A stretch of 64,000 nt of DNA, taken from the NCBI GenBank assembly GCA_009697105.1, contig SIAQ01000005.1, positions 1 through 64,000 of the forward strand, written 5' to 3'. Below the pieces are notes generated by a model, which was given only the letters and a program-made list of their open reading frames with translations, was not told the origin of the DNA and did not search any database. The stretch comes from Gemmataceae bacterium (GTDB lineage: Bacteria; Planctomycetota; Planctomycetia; Gemmatales; Gemmataceae). A program made the translations under genes and the position numbers. Shown piece after piece: positions 11,421 to 56,281 of the stretch (position 1 is the stretch's first letter; every line of letters starts with the position of its first letter).

Positions 11421-11433
11421 CACATCCACAATG

Positions 11434-11456
11434 TAGTACGACGCTTGGCGTCGTAT
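11434..11456. terminator. Possible bidirectional terminator hairpin
   Basis: TACGACGC/GCGTCGTA stem with a short loop, followed by TTTCT, in the 38-bp gap between two convergent genes. It carries the same TACGACGC core as the longer hairpin at 47,335-47,381, so it may be a repeat copy acting as a terminator. Confidence 0.5.
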
Positions 11457-11458
11457 TT

Positions 11459-12214
11459 CTAGCGCTCAATATCTGCGAAGAAATCGTCGCCGAGACCGAG
11501 GTACGGGTCGGCCAAGTCGGCGTGGAGAACGTCGCGGTACAACCACGGCTTGATCTGGTCGGGCCGTTGGCGTTCGGCCAACGCGAGCCGCTCGTGAATT
11601 TGCCGACGGCGCTGCGTTTCGTTGACCAGTGTGTCGGCGACGAGCGGCTGCCAATTGGCCAACTCGGCGGCGGTACGAGGCCGACGGCTGGACGGGGCGG
11701 CAGGAATGACGATCCGTTCGACGGGTCTTTCGATGGTCTTCTTGCCCGGATCGAGCGGCACGAGGCCATCGCCCGGACGCGGTTGGGCGACGAGTAGCCT
11801 CTGTGCCGCGGCTCGATGATATTCTCGCAGCCGTGTCAATTGCGGCTGCACCTGCAACGCGCTCAACGCTTCTGCCAACGCGCGGGGCCGTTCCAATGCC
11901 GAGGTGTATGCGGTCGGCGTGTAAATCCCAGGCAGGATGTCCACGACTTGGCCGTCAGCGTCGCACACGTAGCTGGCGACGTTGCCGTGCAGCGTGCGCG
12001 TTGCGACCGTCCCGTTGCCGAAATCGATGCGCACGATCGGCACGGGGCGAACCATCTCCCAGGCGGGCTCGAAATGCTTGTTGACGAATGCGGCAACATC
12101 TTCGCGCGAGAACAACACGGCTCTCGCTAGACGCGCGTTCGTTCAGCAGAATTTTTCGTCGAGCCTGCCGAGCATCTGAAAGAGCAAGACCGGCTTGCCC
12201 GAACACTCCGAGGC
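11459..12214 (-). pseudogene. Thioredoxin-like protein, 3' half of an interrupted gene with an in-frame TGA
   Basis: Reading from the junction: ASECSGKPVLLFQMLGRLDE, KFC, TGA (12143-12145), TNARLARAVLFS, REDVAAFVNKHFEPAWEMVR, then VPIVRIDFGNG, VASYVCDADGQVVDILPGIYTP and a long Arg/Gln-rich tail to the stop. GKPVLLFQMLGRLDE and the PVPIVRIDFGNG/GIYTP pattern look like a thioredoxin-fold domain of planctomycete type. The frame is continuous except for the TGA, which could encode selenocysteine (C-U pair) or be a nonsense mutation. The gene lacks its own start: the matching 5' half is at 17,299-17,487, separated by a mobile element. Joined at the shared GCC the frame is restored. Confidence 0.7.
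12106..12145 (-). promoter_or_regulatory. Candidate bacterial SECIS element after in-frame TGA
   Basis: On the minus strand the TGA is followed by 15 nt, then GCGAGA, a 10-nt loop starting with G (GCCGTGTTGT), then TCTCGC. That is a perfect 6-bp stem with loop start 22 nt after the TGA. The known bacterial consensus asks for a small stem-loop with G at the start of the apical loop about 16-37 nt after UGA, so the fit is good. A competing CGCGCG/CGCGCG pairing exists and chance stems are common at this GC content. Confidence 0.35.
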
Positions 12215-12329
12215 CGTGCGCGTGGCATGAACACAGTACCTCCAGTTAGGACACGGGTAACGGGGGGGGAAACATATCACGCAATATCGGCAATTTGAGC
12301 GGGTTTGTTGATACAAGTGGATTTGGGAA

Positions 12330-13565
12330 TTACAGCAAACCGACATCAAAACCTAGTGTTCGGCAACGCTCGATGAAATTGTCCGGGTTGGACGTTGGTT
12401 TGACCAGCAGATATCCCGGCGGTGCACCGTGTTCGAGATAGCCTTTTAACTGCGGATGTTCACGAATGGCGGTCAGGGCATCCGCGGTTTCTGGTTTGAC
12501 GAGAGCGCTGCAATAACGGATGCCGATCTTGCCGCCGAGCGAAGATTCCGTTTGCAGGGCAACAACCATGGACGACGGCAACGGATCGAAATTCGCGAGT
12601 GCCGTCCGTAACTCGGCTCCAGCCGAGGGCATTTCCTTCAGACGTTTTGGATTCACCTGGAACTCGAAGAGTTGGTCGATGCGTTTGATCTTGCAGCAGC
12701 GGAAAAGTGGGATGAGCGTATCGAAGTCGAGGCCAGCGCCTGCGAAGATCGCCAGGTTCGAATCAGCCTTGAGTTCATTAACCAATGTCGGCGTGTCGGG
12801 CAACGGACCCAGGCCCAGGATGCCCAGCCCCATCGGACTCGGCATGACCCAGCCGATTTTTTGCTGCTTGCCATAGTAGGCCCATTCGGCTGTGTACAGG
12901 GCTGAGAGCAAAGCCTTCTGGCCTTTCTCATCCAACCAGTGCTTCCAGCCATGCAGGGATACGTCTTTCGTTTTTAGGCCAGCGCTCGCGCCGAGTTTTT
13001 TCAAGTCTGATTCAGGAAGTAGGCAGAGATCGTGCATCACTTGCCCGAGTTGATCCTCACGCAGTGCTCTTCCGTGGAAGCAGGTGAAGAACAGAATCAG
13101 AAACTCGATCAACGAAGCGTGGATCGCCATCGTCGGCCGCCAGGCGAGATAACCGGTGTTGTCCTCTATCATTTGCAGGACGGCGGCGCGCAAGATTTCC
13201 GTGAGTTCTTTGCGACGGTGATTCCAAAAGGAAGCATGGTTCACGCCTTCGCCGTATTGGTTGCGGCGATCGACGCCAACGACCTTGGCAGCCACGAGCA
13301 ATTTGGCGATGCGATCAAAGAAATGCTGATTGAAGTTGGCCTCTTTGCAAATGCGATTGACATCGGTCAGGTTTGGCGAGTCATTCGATTTGGCAGCGAC
13401 GCGGCCGGACCGAAGCATCGCCGCGACTGCTCGGAACCAGTAGCTGCCGTACGGCGAGAACGGAGGTTCTGCGTCAGGTTTCAAGAGGTCCGTGATGGGG
13501 ATCGTGTTCTGCTTTTTCACGAATCGTTCGATCACGCTTGGAAGTGGTTTCATGTTGATACCCAT
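12330..13565 (-). CDS. Unknown 411-residue protein, element cargo
   Basis: Starts MGINMKPLPSVIERFVKKQN; the second Met (13553) is an alternative start. Mixed alpha/beta, no signal peptide or membrane span, and no catalytic motif recognised. Notable stretches are PFSPYGSYWFRAVAAMLRSGR, EILRAAVLQMIEDNTGYLAWRP, SLIEFLILFFTCFHGRALREDQ and a C-terminal GYLLVKPTSNPDNFIERCRTLGFDV. The C-terminal third faintly recalls helicase-associated XPB-N-like segments, but this is a guess. It lies downstream of and on the same strand as the 195-residue gene (27 bp gap), suggesting co-transcription, and ends about 115 bp from the element boundary. Confidence 0.7.
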   Translation of the reverse strand: MGINMKPLPSVIERFVKKQNTIPITDLLKPDAEPPFSPYGSYWFRAVAAMLRSGRVAAKSNDSPNLTDVNRICKEANFNQHFFDRIAKLLVAAKVVGVDRRNQYGEGVNHASFWNHRRKELTEILRAAVLQMIEDNTGYLAWRPTMAIHASLIEFLILFFTCFHGRALREDQLGQVMHDLCLLPESDLKKLGASAGLKTKDVSLHGWKHWLDEKGQKALLSALYTAEWAYYGKQQKIGWVMPSPMGLGILGLGPLPDTPTLVNELKADSNLAIFAGAGLDFDTLIPLFRCCKIKRIDQLFEFQVNPKRLKEMPSAGAELRTALANFDPLPSSMVVALQTESSLGGKIGIRYCSALVKPETADALTAIREHPQLKGYLEHGAPPGYLLVKPTSNPDNFIERCRTLGFDVGLL

Positions 13566-13592
13566 TACGGCAAACGAAACATTCCCGTTGAG

Positions 13593-14180
13593 TTACCGAG
13601 TCGCGGACTGGAAGTGGTTTCGCAGCGATTGAAGTGGCTCCCGGGCGATGAATTTCACGCGGTCGCCATCGAGCATTGCCGAGCACCAGGCGATGATTTC
13701 GGTCGCAGGCAGGTCGCACTTCTCCAGTCCTTGGATGACCACGTTCAAGCACTCTTCGATGTCATCGGTCATCATCCCTTCGTCGCTCATCTCCACCTGA
13801 TGGCTTCCTTCCTTCATCAGTTCCAGCGAGAGCTGCATGGCCGGCCGCAATTGTCCCGAAGCGATCAAGCGGGCCAAGCTTCGTTTCACTTCTTCGTAAG
13901 CTTCGTAGTCGTAGTCGAAGTTGGTGTTCATGTCTCGCTCGTCGAAATCGGTCGCGTCGGCGATGGCGCGACGTGTCGCAACTATCAGTTCCTTTGGTGC
14001 TGTAACCACGCCAAACCGGGCCGCGAGCTGTCGCAGAATCTCACGGCTGGCCTGAGCCAATTCCAGCAAGACGCTCACCAGTTCCGCTTTGCCTCGGCGG
14101 TTGAGTGCCGCGCGTAGCTCGGAAGTGGCGGGTGTCCGCTTCTCTGTCGAGATTGCTTTCTTTGCCTTGCGCTTGGCCAT
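13593..14180 (-). CDS. Unknown 195-residue protein, element cargo
   Basis: Taken from the ATG at 14180 (MAKRKAKKAISTEKRTPATS), preferred over 14204 because it begins a lysine-rich tail. Mostly helical: RAALNRRGKAELVSVLLELAQ, then an acidic segment DFDERDMNTNFDYDYEAYEE, SLARLIASGQLRPAMQLSLELM, and DDIEECLNVVIQGLEKCDLP. The C-terminal half recalls regions that follow SWIM zinc fingers in some bacterial proteins, but no zinc ligands are present. Function unknown. It precedes the 411-residue gene by 27 bp. Confidence 0.65.
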   Translation of the reverse strand: MAKRKAKKAISTEKRTPATSELRAALNRRGKAELVSVLLELAQASREILRQLAARFGVVTAPKELIVATRRAIADATDFDERDMNTNFDYDYEAYEEVKRSLARLIASGQLRPAMQLSLELMKEGSHQVEMSDEGMMTDDIEECLNVVIQGLEKCDLPATEIIAWCSAMLDGDRVKFIAREPLQSLRNHFQSATR

Positions 14181-14329
14181 GGTCTTGACTCCATCTGGTG
14201 ACAACGGCGAGCTCGACGATACGACGCTTGACGGCTTCTCATTTCTCTGGCAATGTTCCGCCCTTGCCTTCCCGGCAAGGACCGTTTGAGAGCGGTCTTT
14301 ACCATCACCGATACCGAAGGAGGTTACTT

Positions 14330-14689
14330 ATGGCAACCAAAGCCAAGCGCTCAACGAGCGCGCCGCGCCACCCGGAGAAGAAGTGGGGGCCCTTTCATGG
14401 AGGAGTTGGCGTCGCAGTCTGGCTCAACGAAGTCCAGACCGACGCCGGCCCCAAATTCTTCAGGAGCATTTCCATCCAACCCAGGAGGTACCGCGACAAG
14501 AAGACGGGGGAGTGGAAGGACGCCGCGTCCCTCCGCTCCACGGACCTTCCTGCTTTGATGCTCGGATTGGAAGCCGCGATGTCGTTCATCGCGCACACGC
14601 CGTTACCTGGCCAATCTCTCGACGACGAGGACGAGATCGATATCCTCGCCGATAGAGAAGGGTCCACCGATTCCGCGACGCAGTTCTGA
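14330..14689 (+). CDS. Unknown 119-residue protein next to the serine recombinase
   Basis: ATG at 14330 preceded by an unusually strong AAGGAGGT. Begins MATKAKRSTSAPRHPEKKWG, then PFHGGVGVAVWLNEVQTDAGPKFFRSISIQPRRYRDKKTGEWKDA and STDLPALMLGLEAAMSFI, ending acidic. The order, a strand pair GVGVAVWLNEVQT..SISI and a YRDKKTGEWKDA turn, suggests a small beta-rich nucleic-acid-binding or accessory protein; similar short proteins accompany recombinases in planctomycete elements as far as I recall. It is the only gene on the plus strand of the element and ends at a strong terminator-like hairpin. Confidence 0.7.
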   Translation: MATKAKRSTSAPRHPEKKWGPFHGGVGVAVWLNEVQTDAGPKFFRSISIQPRRYRDKKTGEWKDAASLRSTDLPALMLGLEAAMSFIAHTPLPGQSLDDEDEIDILADREGSTDSATQF

Positions 14690-14716
14690 AACGTTCCACC
14701 TCGGCCGCTCTCAACA

Positions 14717-14741
14717 ACCCCCATGCTCGGTGCATGGGGGT
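14717..14741. terminator. Hairpin between convergent element genes
   Basis: ACCCCCATGC, loop TCGGT, GCATGGGGGT: a perfect 10-bp stem followed by ATTTCG, 28 bp after the 119-residue gene and just before the 3' end of the recombinase. Likely a bidirectional terminator, although the T-run is weak. Confidence 0.6.
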
Positions 14742-14752
14742 ATTTCGTGATC

Positions 14753-15931
14753 TTAGTCTTGCCGAGTCGTCTTTGCTTTCTTCTCGTGCGGTCGCGGTTT
14801 TGACGTAGTCAGTTCCTTTGGATACGATGTCGTGCTCATGCTCGGATGGGCGTTGAAAAACGCTTGCAGTTTCCGCAGCCGTTTTTGCTCATCGGCGTCG
14901 GCCCAGATGATGTAGTAGCCATGCAAAGGAGAACGCCGCCAGTGAACGCCGTTGCGGTGCATCCACCTGCGAAGATGACTGCATCCAATATCCAGGTGGC
15001 GGGCGAGATCGGCCAAGAGCCATTCGTCGGGTGCCAGTTCGATTTTTTCGATCCGTCCCGGAAGTAACTCGCTCCGCCTGAGCAATGCCAGCACCATGTG
15101 TTTGTCCCATGGCAACTCCGGATTGATATTTCGGAAGCCGGCTTGCTGCAATTGCTCGGCGATCTGCGCGGTCAACATTCCGGCGGCGTGCCCAGCGCGG
15201 ACACAGTTCATGATGGCATCGAAGTCGCGCAGTTGCTCGTATTTTTGCACGCGGCGAACGATAGCGTGCTGACTGACAAATCCTCCCTTCCAATGAATCG
15301 CCACGTCGATATGTTCTGTGGCGCCCTGAGCCGTCACCACGACTTTGTCGATGAGATGGCGCGTGATCTCCTTGCGGTCCACGGCCGTTGTCTCGGAAGC
15401 GTGCCACAAGCTCGGCAGATCGGCCGCAAGCACGCCGATCTGCTCGCGCTCTTCCGTCGTCAGCAAGCATGGCGCCTCTTGCTCGAAGCGGTGAAAGTCC
15501 TCCTCCATCTGGCGTTGCTTGTTGAGGGCTTTCTCCCACTCTTTCTCCAACGTGCCGGCTACCAGTCGGTTTTCCGGATCGACGCTGCGGTAATGGCGTT
15601 CGGCCCGCTGCGCCTCATAGCGGGCCCGCTGCATTTCTTGCTGGCGGAATTCGGCGAGCCGCGTGCGTTCCTTCTGAATGTCTTCGGCGGCACGAAGGCT
15701 CAATTCCAGGGCAGCCGGCTCCAAGGCCCGCAGAACCTGACGGCTCACGAGTTCGTCGATGCAGTAAGCTGCGATGCCTTGGCACTTTCTTTCGATGCCA
15801 TGTCGGTTCGCATGGAAGCAGTCGTAGCGGCCTTTATCGGCTTTGGAATAGATCACATTCAAATGATGCTGACAGATGCCGCATTCGATGATGCCGCCCA
15901 GCAACGCGGCACTCCCGGCGCGTCCCAGCAT
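14753..15931 (-). pseudogene. Serine recombinase, C-terminal part after frameshift
   Basis: 392 residues beginning MLGRAGSAALLGGIIECGIC. This is the zinc-ribbon plus coiled-coil part of a large serine recombinase: ECGICQHH ... CFHANRHG with C/C/C pattern and CQGIAAYCIDELVSRQVLRAL, then a long charged coiled coil (QKERTRLAEFRQQEMQRARYEAQRAE) and a C-terminal HTH-like region with LARHLDIGCSHLRRWMHRNG. It continues the N-terminal recombinase ORF in another frame; they overlap at 15,859-15,931. A single-base change near 15,925 would fuse them as NRS-MLGRAG. Confidence 0.75.
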
Positions 15932-16989
15932 GACCTGTTTTGGCGCAGGCGCTCCTGGTTCGCTTCATACTGTTCCCAGGTGATGTACGCGGGCACGCAA
16001 TCGTGGATCATGACCTTCCATTCTTCGCGCGGCACCCATTTGCGCGCCGGTTTGTTGTTCCGATTCACGCGCCGCTTGTGATCCACCGCACTCCGACCAT
16101 AGGCGTACGTCCCCGCATGCATGGGATTGTGCAGCAGGCCATAAATGGTTACGTTGCTCGGGCGCCGCCAGGTAAGCACGCCTGGATTGGGCCCATCGTG
16201 CGGTCGCACGCCGATCTTGATGTCGTTTTCGAGGAGATAGTGAAATACAGCGAATGCCGTTCCCAACTCCACGAATTTCTCGAAGATCAACTGCACCACA
16301 CCGCGTGCCTGCTCATCGGGTTCCATGACCACCTCGTGCGACGGCGACCAGGCGTAGCCGATCGGCAAGCTCATGAACAACTCGCCGCGTTCCGCCTTGT
16401 TCAACTTGCCTCGATCCAGGCGATTTCGCATGGTGTGCAACTCCACTTCGCTGATCGTGCCGCGCAGGCCTAACAGCAGACGATCATTCGGATCATTGGG
16501 ATCGTAGACGCCATCCTGGTCAGCCAGCAAGGTGCCGAAGACGGCGCACAATTCGAGCAGGTGATGCCAGTCCTTGCACGACCGCGCGAGTCGGCTCATC
16601 TCCAGGCCCATGACGACGCCCACGTGATCCATCGAGACTTCGGCCAGCAGACGCTGAAAGCCCGGGCGACCGTCGGCAGATCGTCCGCTCTTGCCCAGGT
16701 CCTCATCGATCGTCAAAATCCGGTCGCTCGACCAGCCGAGCGCCAGAGCGTAATCGGTCAACGCATACTGTCGGTCAAGTGACTCGCGATGTTCAATCAT
16801 CTGCTGCGGCGTCGATTGCCGCACATAGACGATCGCCAGGCGCGACACATGCCGTTCATACACCTTGGTGGAACTCAATCGGCCTGGTCGTGGGGCCGTA
16901 CGCTTGGCTTCGGCCGGTTTTGCCGCTTCCAGCTTCTGCTCGGCGGAAACGCGAGGTTCCAGCGTGGCACCCGAATCATGAATCTTCAT
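15859..16989 (-). CDS. Large serine recombinase, N-terminal part
   Basis: 376 residues from the ATG at 16989, which has AAGGAGGT upstream and overlaps the previous small ORF. Resolvase domain at about 50-195 with the catalytic Ser59 in YVRQSTPQQM, then EDLGKSGRSADGRPGFQRLL, GLEMSRLARSCKDWHHLLELC and LRGTISEVELHTMRNRL, followed by the recombinase domain with GLLHNPMHAGTYAYGR. The expected downstream zinc ribbon is out of frame, so as sequenced the product ends in 25 unrelated residues. It would integrate or excise the surrounding element. Frameshift or sequencing error cannot be told apart here. Confidence 0.85.
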   Translation of the reverse strand: MKIHDSGATLEPRVSAEQKLEAAKPAEAKRTAPRPGRLSSTKVYERHVSRLAIVYVRQSTPQQMIEHRESLDRQYALTDYALALGWSSDRILTIDEDLGKSGRSADGRPGFQRLLAEVSMDHVGVVMGLEMSRLARSCKDWHHLLELCAVFGTLLADQDGVYDPNDPNDRLLLGLRGTISEVELHTMRNRLDRGKLNKAERGELFMSLPIGYAWSPSHEVVMEPDEQARGVVQLIFEKFVELGTAFAVFHYLLENDIKIGVRPHDGPNPGVLTWRRPSNVTIYGLLHNPMHAGTYAYGRSAVDHKRRVNRNNKPARKWVPREEWKVMIHDCVPAYITWEQYEANQERLRQNRSCWDAPGVPRCWAASSNAASVSII

Positions 16990-17176
16990 GCGCCACCTCC
17001 TTGTTTGCCGGAGGTGCGTGGAGCTTTCGCAGAAGAATTTGGCCGAACACGCGGAGAACCTGGCGCTGATCCTGGCCAGGAATCTTCTCCCAGAGGGAGG
17101 TCAGCGGCAGACTCGTTTCGATCGGATTTTGGCGCGGGGGGGAGCAACTCGGTCTTCGTGGTTGAACACGCTTCAC
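16976..17176 (-). CDS. Small ORF overlapping the recombinase start
   Basis: 66 residues; the informative part is PIETSLPLTSLWEKIPGQDQRQVLRVFGQILLRKLHAPPANKEVAHEDS. It overlaps the recombinase start by 14 bp, so the recombinase is probably translationally coupled to it. A short predicted helical protein of the PLTSLWEKIP..QRQVLRVF..LL type is, as I recall, usual upstream of planctomycete recombinases. The start is unclear: GTG at 17176 lies directly on the AAGGAGG, and a 7-G run nearby could hide a frameshift. A proline-rich 113-aa frame overlaps it and is less likely real. Confidence 0.45.
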   Translation of the reverse strand: MKRVQPRRPSCSPPRQNPIETSLPLTSLWEKIPGQDQRQVLRVFGQILLRKLHAPPANKEVAHEDS

Positions 17177-17298
17177 CTCCTTGTGTATCTTGCCGACGTT
17201 GGCGAATCCACTTCGCCAGGTTCAAGAGGGCTGAAGTGGCGATTGTAGGCAATCCGCCGCTCGCCGGGCGAGGGATCTTACGAGGGGTCTTCTGTTTG

Positions 17299-17487
17299 GG
17301 CTTTGCAGGCGGCGGCGAAATCGTCATGCCAGCGCACCCGCCCAGGCGTTACACTCGGATTGCCGTCCGCAAACCGTGCGGATGTCGCCTGATTGTTCCC
17401 GTTCGATGAAACGACACCCACAGTCAACCCGGCTCCTGCTGCCACGGAAGCCTGCAAGAATTGCCGGCGATTGTTTTGATTCAACAT
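17299..17487 (-). pseudogene. Thioredoxin-like protein, 5' half with Tat signal
   Basis: From ATG at 17487: MLNQNNRRQFLQASVAAGAG is a twin-arginine signal (RRQFLQ), then a short linker and TPGRVRWHDDFAAACKA, which looks like the start of a thioredoxin-fold domain; the frame then runs six residues into element sequence (QTEDPS, stop at 17278). The homologous continuation, SECSGKPVLLFQMLGRLDE, is found in frame at 12,214 on the same strand after the 5.1-kb element. The intact ancestor would be an exported Tat substrate of about 320 residues. Confidence 0.68.
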
Positions 17488-18420: not shown

Positions 18421-18737
18421 AAGCCCCGTGGGTGAGGCACTCCGAACGCCTGGGATAAACCGCATCATCCCAGAGGTTCGGAGTACCTCACCCCATAGGC
18501 ACCAACTATAAGGAACTCGCATCGGAAAAAAATAATTGAACCACAGAGGCACAGAGGACACAGAGAAAATGCAAAGAATGGGAGAAGAGCAAGGCACGCA
18601 GAATCGTGAGATTTTCAATTAGCTATTCCGCGTATTTTCTCTGTGTCCTCTGAGTCTCTGTGGTTCAAATTTGATTGCCTGGCCTGAGTTCCTTAAGTTG
18701 GTGCCAATGGGGTTCGGAGTACCTCACCCCTGGGCTT
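18421..18737. repeat. Composite nested palindrome (shell plus CACAGAGG insert)
   Basis: Outer arms AAGCCCCGTGGGTGAGGCACTCCGAA and TTCGGAGTACCTCACCCCTGGGCTT; next GGCACCAACTATAAGGAACTC / GAGTTCCTTAAGTTGGTGCC; inside, TTGAACCACAGAGGCACAGAGG / CCTCTGAGTCTCTGTGGTTCAA. Same order as at 25.3 and 29.4 kb. This fills the whole 355-bp gap between recN and the membrane protein gene. Confidence 0.85.
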
Positions 18738-18746
18738 GGATTGACT

Positions 18747-25258: not shown

Positions 25259-25531
25259 CAAGCCCAGAGGGTGAGGTACTCCGAACCCCATTGACACCGA
25301 CTTAAGGAACTCAGGCCAGGCAATCAAATTTGAACCACAGAGGCACAGAGGACACAGAGAAAATACGCGGAATAGTTAATTGGAATTCTCACGATTCTGC
25401 GTGCCTTGTTCTTCTCCCCTTCTTTGTATTTTCTCTGTGTCCTCTGTGCCTCTGTGGTTCAATTGCGTTTTTCCGATGCGAGTTCCTTAAGTTGGTGTCA
25501 ATGGGGTTCGGAGTATCTCTTCCCTAGGCTT
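25259..25531. repeat. Composite nested palindrome
   Basis: Outer AAGCCCAGAGGGTGAGGTACTCCGAA ... TTCGGAGTATCTCTTCCC; inner CACCGACTTAAGGAACTC / GAGTTCCTTAAGTTGGTG and TTGAACCACAGAGGCACAGAGG / CCTCTGTGCCTCTGTGGTTCAA. Sits inside the pilus-like operon between its second and third genes. This fills nearly the whole 332-bp gap; the third gene's GGAGG follows. Confidence 0.85.
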
Positions 25532-25569
25532 GCGTTCCCTGCTTGATGCCCAAACCGGAGGATTGGCAG

Positions 25570-29366: not shown

Positions 29367-29797
29367 AAGCCCAGTGGTGAGGTACTCCGAACCTCTGAGA
29401 ACTGCCGAACGCGCGGCTTCGCCCTAGAGGTTCGGAGTATCTCACCGCCATTGGCACCAACTTAAGGAACGCGCATTGAAGAAACACAATTGAACCACAG
29501 AGGCACAGAGGACACAGAGAAAACACGAAGAATGGGAGAAGAATGACGCCACCGACAAAAGTACGAGCCGGAAGCGTAAGCGACGGATTTCTCCAGTCCG
29601 TCGCTTACGCTTCCGGCTCGTAAAGCGACTTTTGTCGGTCGCGTCAAGAATAATGCACGCAGAATCGTGAGAATTCCAGGTCACTATTCCGTGCATTTTC
29701 TCTGTGTCCCCTGTGTCTCTGTGGTTAGTCTGCGTTTTTTGACACAGATTCCTTAAGTTGGTGCCAATGGTTTCGGAGTACCTCACCACTGGGCTTG
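29367..29797. repeat. Four-layer nested palindrome
   Basis: Outermost AAGCCCAGTGGTGAGGTACTC.../...GAGTACCTCACCACTGGGCTT. Inside, CCATTGGCACCAACTTAAGGAA / TTCCTTAAGTTGGTGCCAATGG. Inside that, AACCACAGAGGCACAGAGG / its inverse. Innermost, at 29,544-29,646, a TGACGCC...GCGTCA element with TACGAGCCGGAAGCGTAAGCGACGG arms. This and the true gene start fill the 590-bp gap. Confidence 0.9.
29544..29646. mobile_element. Putative MITE-like element, TGACGCC/GCGTCA ends
   Basis: TGACGCCACCGACAAAAGTACGAGCCGGAAGCGTAAGCG / CTTACGCTTCCGGCTCGTAAAGCGACTTTTGTCGGTCGCGTCA. Sits within a repeat whose other copies (18.6, 25.4 kb) lack it: GGGAGAAGAGCAAGGCACGC there versus GGGAGAAGAAT-[element]-AGAATAATGCACGC here. 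That is direct evidence of insertion. Confidence 0.7.
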
Positions 29798-47307: not shown

Positions 47308-47334
47308 TACCGCAAAATGCCCCTGCGGCGACCT

Positions 47335-47388
47335 ACGACGCGGAGCGTCGTGCTACACTGTAGTACGACGCTCCGCGTCGTGTTTTTT
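47335..47388 (+). terminator. Terminator hairpin, 'ACGACGCGGAGCGTCGT' type
   Basis: ACGACGCGGAGCGTCGTGCTACA / TGTAGTACGACGCTCCGCGTCGT followed by G and TTTTTT, just after the Asn/Tyr-rich gene. Both an intrinsic terminator and a repeat related to 11,434. Confidence 0.75.
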
Positions 47389-56029: not shown

Positions 56030-56147
56030 CTACTTGGACAACGCTAGTTCGTAGGTTAGGCTTTCCAGCCTGACGTATATGATTGATAATGGGTAAGCCA
56101 CGTCAGGCCGGATAGCCTGACCTACGTAACTAGCGCTGTCGTACTAA
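56030..56147. mobile_element. Small element with GTAGGTTAGGCTTTCCAGCCTGAC palindrome
   Basis: Left end near CTTGGACAACGCTAGTT, right end AACTAGCGCTGTCGTACTAA, with inner CGTAGGTTAGGCTTTCCAGCCTGACG / CGTCAGGCCGGATAGCCTGACCTACG. The right end equals the IS tip seen at 142-157. Confidence 0.6.
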
Positions 56148-56281
56148 TACGACAGCGCTAGATCGAGAATTTGGCCCGCATTGTAGCCGAATTCGTGAGA
56201 ATTCGGACGACTTGGGCAAACGAGGGAAGGCCGAATTCTCACGAATTCAGCTACAGGATACGATGTAGCGCTGTCGTACTA
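56147..56281. mobile_element. Small MITE-like element with 16-bp inverted ends
   Basis: Left TAATACGACAGCGCTA and right TAGCGCTGTCGTACTA are inverted; inner palindrome TAGCCGAATTCGTGAGAATTCGG / CCGAATTCTCACGAATTCAGCTA. About 135 bp, no ORF. It abuts the previous element head to tail and shares its ends with the transposase remnant at the left edge. Confidence 0.65.

Follow-up and report, generated by a model that had tools for sequence, protein, structure and literature searches.

The window analyzed here is a stretch of 64,000 nucleotides from a Gemmataceae bacterium (contig SIAQ01000005.1), and between its positions 11,459 and 17,487 a host gene lies on the minus strand in two separate parts. 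The 5′ part (17307..17487) comprises a Tat signal, scored above cut-off by the Pfam model TAT_signal, and the start of a thioredoxin-like domain, up to a GCA core; the 3′ part is found at 11459..12216. Both were delimited by alignment to the intact gene of G004, a metagenome-assembled genome of Singulisphaera sp. GP187 isolate MaH-04nov19-250 (contig CAMAUE010000056.1). The DNA between the parts is an integrated element of 5,087 bp (12220..17306, minus strand), which is absent at the same place in G003 and G004 in DNA alignments. An earlier note on this DNA, made from the letters alone, had described two minus-strand halves held apart by 5.1 kb with a serine recombinase and unknown genes; the halves and their coordinates, the gene content, and the size were all borne out.

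When the rejoined protein was searched against 59 related genomes, as the earlier note had advised, uninterrupted genes were found in four genomes of the same genus (G003, G004, G005, and G006). These homologues run across the join, and the G004 protein spans it with 88% identity over residues 1–313. By alignment, then, the gene is split by a mobile element; the insertion itself is ordinary.

The alignments to the G004 and G003 empty sites yielded, independently of each other, identical breakpoints with a 3-nt overlap, GCA, on both sides. The left copy of this core, the presumptive crossover point, lies at 17304..17306 and the right copy at 12217..12219 (both minus strand). The two element ends read TGCAAAGCC and CGCACGGCC, and GCC is also common to both in register, which is why the earlier note had chosen GCC as the joint. 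Because G004 reads TGCACGGCC, the exchange is placed at GCA, 5 nt from GCC. The claim that the ends could be located almost to the base was thus close, and its core was wrong. The empty site predicted from GCC, which would carry a Lys codon (AAA) at the join, also failed: G004 has Thr (ACG) there, within GCCGCCTGCACGGCCTCG (A A C T A S). A search for long terminal repeats returned none, leaving only the short core.

Two kinds of repeat were observed in the surrounding DNA. Short palindromic repeats of the GTAGTACGACGC..GCGTCGTA type are present at 11426–11455, 47334–47385, and 56030–56153, and also adjoin the gene in G004; Rfam gave only a sub-threshold CRISPR-repeat match, at 11426–11455, outside the element. 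A repeat of ∼200 bp occurs in both orientations at 18526–18738, 25259–25532, and 29449–29797, and is likewise found in G004.

Recombinase and cargo of the element

A large serine recombinase gene occupies 14753..16989 on the minus strand. Its product has Resolvase (PF00239, E = 2.7e-24), Recombinase (PF07508, E = 7e-11), and zinc-ribbon (PF13408, E = 1.4e-6) domains, all above cut-off, with YVRQS at the position expected for the catalytic serine of the Resolvase N-terminal domain. The gene consists of two overlapping frames, 16989–15859 and 15931–14753, and is broken near 15905, where ∼13 nt are missing between GVP(R) and ALLGG; nine homologues are intact there. The recombinase is probably dead, judging from this break, and the element would then be immobile on its own. 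The recombinase is single-copy in this genome, and a search of the genome, following the advice of the earlier note to look for further copies, found no second one of the recombinase. Identity with known recombinases was rejected for XisF of the fdxN element (NCBIfam score, 72.7 of 375 bits) and for the staphylococcal-cassette (SCC) recombinases CcrA, CcrB, and CcrC, which scored lower still; all fell below the curated cut-offs.

Three cargo ORFs accompany the recombinase. The first (14330..14689, plus strand; 119 amino acids) starts with an ATG behind GGAGG and belongs to no known family, and a longer form of this ORF had no Pfam match. The second (13593..14204, minus strand; 203 amino acids) bears a weak similarity to parts of larger proteins, of 600–800 amino acids, encoded elsewhere in the planctomycete phylum. 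The third (12330..13565, minus strand; 411 amino acids) is an orphan, unmatched across 94 further family genomes, plasmids, and Pfam. A role of the cargo in defence found no support, and a promoter and terminator scan gave nothing above chance.

Related elements and their targets

Related recombinases were detected at E below 1e-40 in 39 of 298 genomes of the class, and relatives also reside on plasmids of cyanobacteria and proteobacteria; viral contigs contributed a single, distant recombinase only. Three genomes carry near-identical copies with different flanks, four in G225, five in G180, and six in G061, and these copies define the element borders. The multi-copy elements measure ∼2.5–2.8 kb and are essentially a leader plus the recombinase. 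The relatives insert at many different sites.

In the flanks of the multi-copy relatives (L108–L123), we observed a GAG core; in many cases this triplet encodes the glutamate of a Y(2)R(3)E-like motif within the gene at the insertion site. The target genes resemble DDE transposases (IS5, IS4, IS701, and ISAs1), motif and family being judged by eye. This glutamate-codon target recalls that of ISEc21, an IS110 element whose target includes a catalytic Asp codon of IS3-family transposases (PMC11187229).

A probable gene with its start and its body at opposite ends of the element

The left end of the element (16986..17306, minus strand) contains the body of a small reading frame, gene 1, which has no start codon of its own and includes a motif, ALLxLAxW, that is conserved in relatives. 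At the right end, a Shine-Dalgarno sequence (GGAGG, 12239–12243) and an ATG (12226–12228) point outward (12226..12243, minus strand), a layout also seen in relatives. When the two ends are joined, the right end (GGAGG...ATG CCA CGC GCA) continues into the left end (AAG CCC AAA CAG...) as an open frame, which closes in the ATGA of the recombinase start and so overlaps the recombinase gene. The earlier note had correctly named the element type, but it had noticed neither that the recombinase is broken nor that the ends can rejoin to give the element a small gene.

The same arrangement was recovered in several independent elements. With the borders given by the multi-copy genomes, the G180 ends join as MAGTSRRAKQTAPQ..., with the same internal ALLxLAxW motif, and hand translation gave in-frame joins for G225 (MAGKRRCPTRTTPQ...) and, starting at the second GTG of an overlapping pair, for G061 (MTGQSRTPSQTTGE...). 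An automatic junction search based on the longest shared sequence returned mostly noise for short cores, and only those cases sharing at least 7 nt between their ends were kept: L130 (8 nt), L134 (7 nt), and L144 (14 nt), all of which join in frame. Altogether, seven of seven usable cases join in frame, where chance would give about one in three each, a statistic that the shared ancestry of the relatives inflates. Of 26 relatives, 13 have an outward Shine-Dalgarno sequence and start codon no more than 130 nt from the recombinase stop, versus 5.2% of random segments; among the other half, some contain cargo and some are cut off by the edge of a contig. A Met precedes the motif in only 1 of the 19 gene 1 bodies.

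The main alternative is a plain insertion, in which the right-end start signals and the left-end similarity are recombinase-binding sites, the attP half-sites, and no gene exists. A serine integrase attP is ∼50 bp long and straddles the core. Conserved ends are expected of such a site, and the right-end ATG of the window and the host gene are in different frames; the host gene is consequently not restarted, and the ATG does nothing obvious there. Conservation, however, tracks one frame (frame A) for ∼40 residues past the end, through ALLxLAxW and with few stops, and in L124–L127 the differences among the right ends (M/V-SATS) fall mainly on the start codon and on wobble positions. Together with the in-frame joins, these data make a plain insertion improbable in our judgment, at perhaps the level of a minority view.

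We infer instead that in this element family attP lies inside a coding sequence and that gene 1 would be complete only in an excised, circular form of the element. No circle junction was found in the two multi-copy genomes tested, as expected for assembled chromosomes. A gene of this circle-only kind appears to be new. Gene 1 matched no known family, and a search of largely open-access literature turned up no account of an element in which the start codon sits at the far end from its gene.

A conserved C-run in the leader

The leader also contains a run of seven C (17136..17142, minus strand), conserved in relatives, which we propose as a frameshift or slippage site. A C-run of at least six lies upstream of the recombinase in 27 of 28 relatives examined, two cyanobacteria included. 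The conserved frame is A before the run and B, with the signature LWxxLPxxxR...KEVxHE, after it. In most relatives, a Shine-Dalgarno sequence and a start codon stand a few codons before the run in the third frame. In the window, this second reading, gene 2 (16976..17169, minus strand), starts with a GTG behind GGAGG, passes the C-run, and then follows the LWxxLP...KEVxHE frame; because its start lies in the third frame, the ribosome would have to change frame at the run to make the gene 2 product. No known family matched gene 2.

Frame A itself remains open past the run, with 1 stop in the related sequences versus 22.6 expected by codon shuffling, a count likewise subject to the shared ancestry of the relatives. 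This suggests dual coding after the C-run, and the run is presumably the site at which the reading frame changes in the leader.

The interrupted host gene

The evidence at the locus is one metagenome-assembled allele, from a genome in 187 contigs, and an assembly chimera, two unrelated contigs having been merged with no inserted element, might be imagined. We consider this very unlikely, as both flanks are collinear with G004, the borders share the core, and the insert matches a known group of mobile elements in its ends and in the order of its genes.

The earlier note had called the host gene Tat-exported and thioredoxin-like, and both parts of the call held, the first by the TAT_signal match and the second by structural modeling. 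The core of the AlphaFold model computed for the intact protein of G004 is confident, and the PDB entries that the model matched best (E = 9e-4 to 1e-3) were thioredoxin folds of DsbH and DsbD-like proteins, indicating that the host protein is predicted to adopt a thioredoxin fold. No Pfam or NCBIfam model matched the thioredoxin-like domain above cut-off; Thioredoxin_7 appeared below cut-off only, and the nearest NCBIfam model, VPGUxxT, reached 13.6 of 275 bits, far under its cut-off.

The second half is not an open frame: the earlier note had overlooked an in-frame TGA at 12143..12145 (minus strand). In the homologous loci L003, L005, L006, L007, L008, and L009, the sole internal stop is this same TGA, within a C-U-T-N-A-R motif; L010 appears damaged, with several stops. 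A scan of 84,980 species, one genome per species, gave 80 loci from taxa that include Planctomycetota, Cyanobacteria, Acidobacteria, Verrucomicrobia, and Myxococcales. The corresponding column is conserved, with TGA in 16 loci, TGC or TGT in 63, and TAA or TAG in none. TGA is kept by the close homologues, and the 63 Cys genes are more distant.

A SECIS-like hairpin, GCGAGAGCCGTGTTGTTCTCGC, lies at 12106..12127 (minus strand). It is present 3′ of the UGA in 16 of 16 UGA genes and in 0 of 63 Cys genes, and its bases are near-invariant across 15 sequences. The arginine codon within it is AGA or AGG in all 16 UGA genes versus 6 of the 63 Cys genes. Folded free-standing, the hairpin reached z = −2.1 in G004 and only −0.2 in the window; because the fold is significant in the former and not in the latter, the argument for the hairpin rests on its conservation.

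SelA and SelB are present in the genome of the window. A tRNA-Sec was found in the sister genome G004 and not in the assembly of the window's genome; the G004 tRNA-Sec region corresponds to a gap between contigs there, so that the absence is explained by a contig that ends before the sister's tRNA-Sec position. A loss of tRNA-Sec from the genome is unsupported for the same reason. A general recoding of TGA is also unsupported, because related genes in the set, such as that of L006, terminate with TGA themselves. Least probable of all is the reading that the element struck a pseudogene already killed by a nonsense TGA: the gene is interrupted and its assembly is without tRNA-Sec, but the same codon is TGA in the intact sister and in distant genes, with Cys elsewhere and the hairpin conserved, which contradicts a nonsense mutation, and identity to G004 stays at 88% after the join. 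On this conservation, the in-frame TGA is a predicted selenocysteine codon.

Like VPGUxxT and other thioredoxin-like selenoproteins, the host protein would combine a thioredoxin fold with selenocysteine; it differs from VPGUxxT in the motif of its family, (C/T)-U-T-N-A-R. We did not find this motif in a review of prokaryotic selenoproteins from 2026 (PMC13188914), and the selenoprotein family appears to be new and uncatalogued.

Separately, many planctomycete genomes encode more distant homologues that have (F/L)T-U-N-N-A as their motif and in which an in-frame TGA is likewise conserved (loci L013, L015–L023, L026, L027, and L029–L032). Two members of this group were tested, and neither matched a Pfam or NCBIfam family above cut-off.

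Discussion

Taken as a whole, the locus is probably best explained by an element that inserted at GCA in the gene of a Tat-exported selenoprotein with a thioredoxin fold and has since been disabled, and whose gene 1 would be restored by circle formation. The recombinase would have crossed attP, which lies in gene 1, with the GCA of the host, splitting both genes at once. On the host side, the signal peptide and the active site with its UGA would have been parted by the insertion, most likely leaving the gene inactive. The ∼13 nt of the recombinase would have been lost after integration.

On the element side, integration would remove the start of gene 1, leaving it silent, and excision to a circle would restore it. 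In the circle, translated gene 1 may raise translation of the recombinase via the ATGA overlap or direct the enzyme to integration. Gene 1 could accordingly be a circle-only product that biases the recombinase between integration and excision, or one that couples recombinase translation to the circular state. For the wider group, we lean toward the view that widespread small elements gate a leader gene at translation initiation, yielding a circle-only protein that could set the direction of recombination, and that the C-run implies a programmed frameshift.

The element is comparable with several known systems. The Resolvase, Recombinase, and zinc-ribbon domains, the very short core, and the many sites used by the relatives are shared with the large serine recombinase transposons (TnpX of Tn4451, TndX, and CTn elements) and with multi-targeting large serine recombinases, which have been described (PMC10083194). 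TnpX uses a 2-bp target (PMC3158075), and assignment to a Tn4451/TnpX type with a 2-bp GA core was rejected, as the core here is GCA; GAG does serve as the core in relatives. Unlike the Tn4451 type, the relatives are 2.5–2.8 kb units of leader and recombinase, with the leader start codon at the opposite end and a C-run in the leader.

In mycobacteriophage BPs, attP also lies within a coding sequence and integration alters the gene product (PMC4557955); there the repressor loses its 3′ end and the short form is active, whereas here the leader gene would lose its start codon and ribosome-binding site. In IS1111 and IS110, the circle junction creates a promoter (PMC11187229). The joining of ends in a circle would likewise create an expression signal for element genes here, but by bringing a Shine-Dalgarno sequence and start codon to a reading frame, and with a recombinase of a different class. 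Finally, the DUF5372/DUF6788 recombinase operon (Cupriavidus plasmid; rhizobial Y4bD-type) also has two small genes before a distantly related serine recombinase; those small genes belong to different families and lie whole inside the element, and the recombinase there is not preceded by a C-run.

The locus offers an insertion defined to the base by two empty sites that are independent of each other, and it leads to a selenoprotein family that no curated model was found to cover. It also exposes what would be a control device common to many serine-recombinase elements, whose range extends from planctomycetes to the plasmids of cyanobacteria. Should gene 1 determine which way recombination runs, these elements would contain a natural self-resetting switch for serine integrases.
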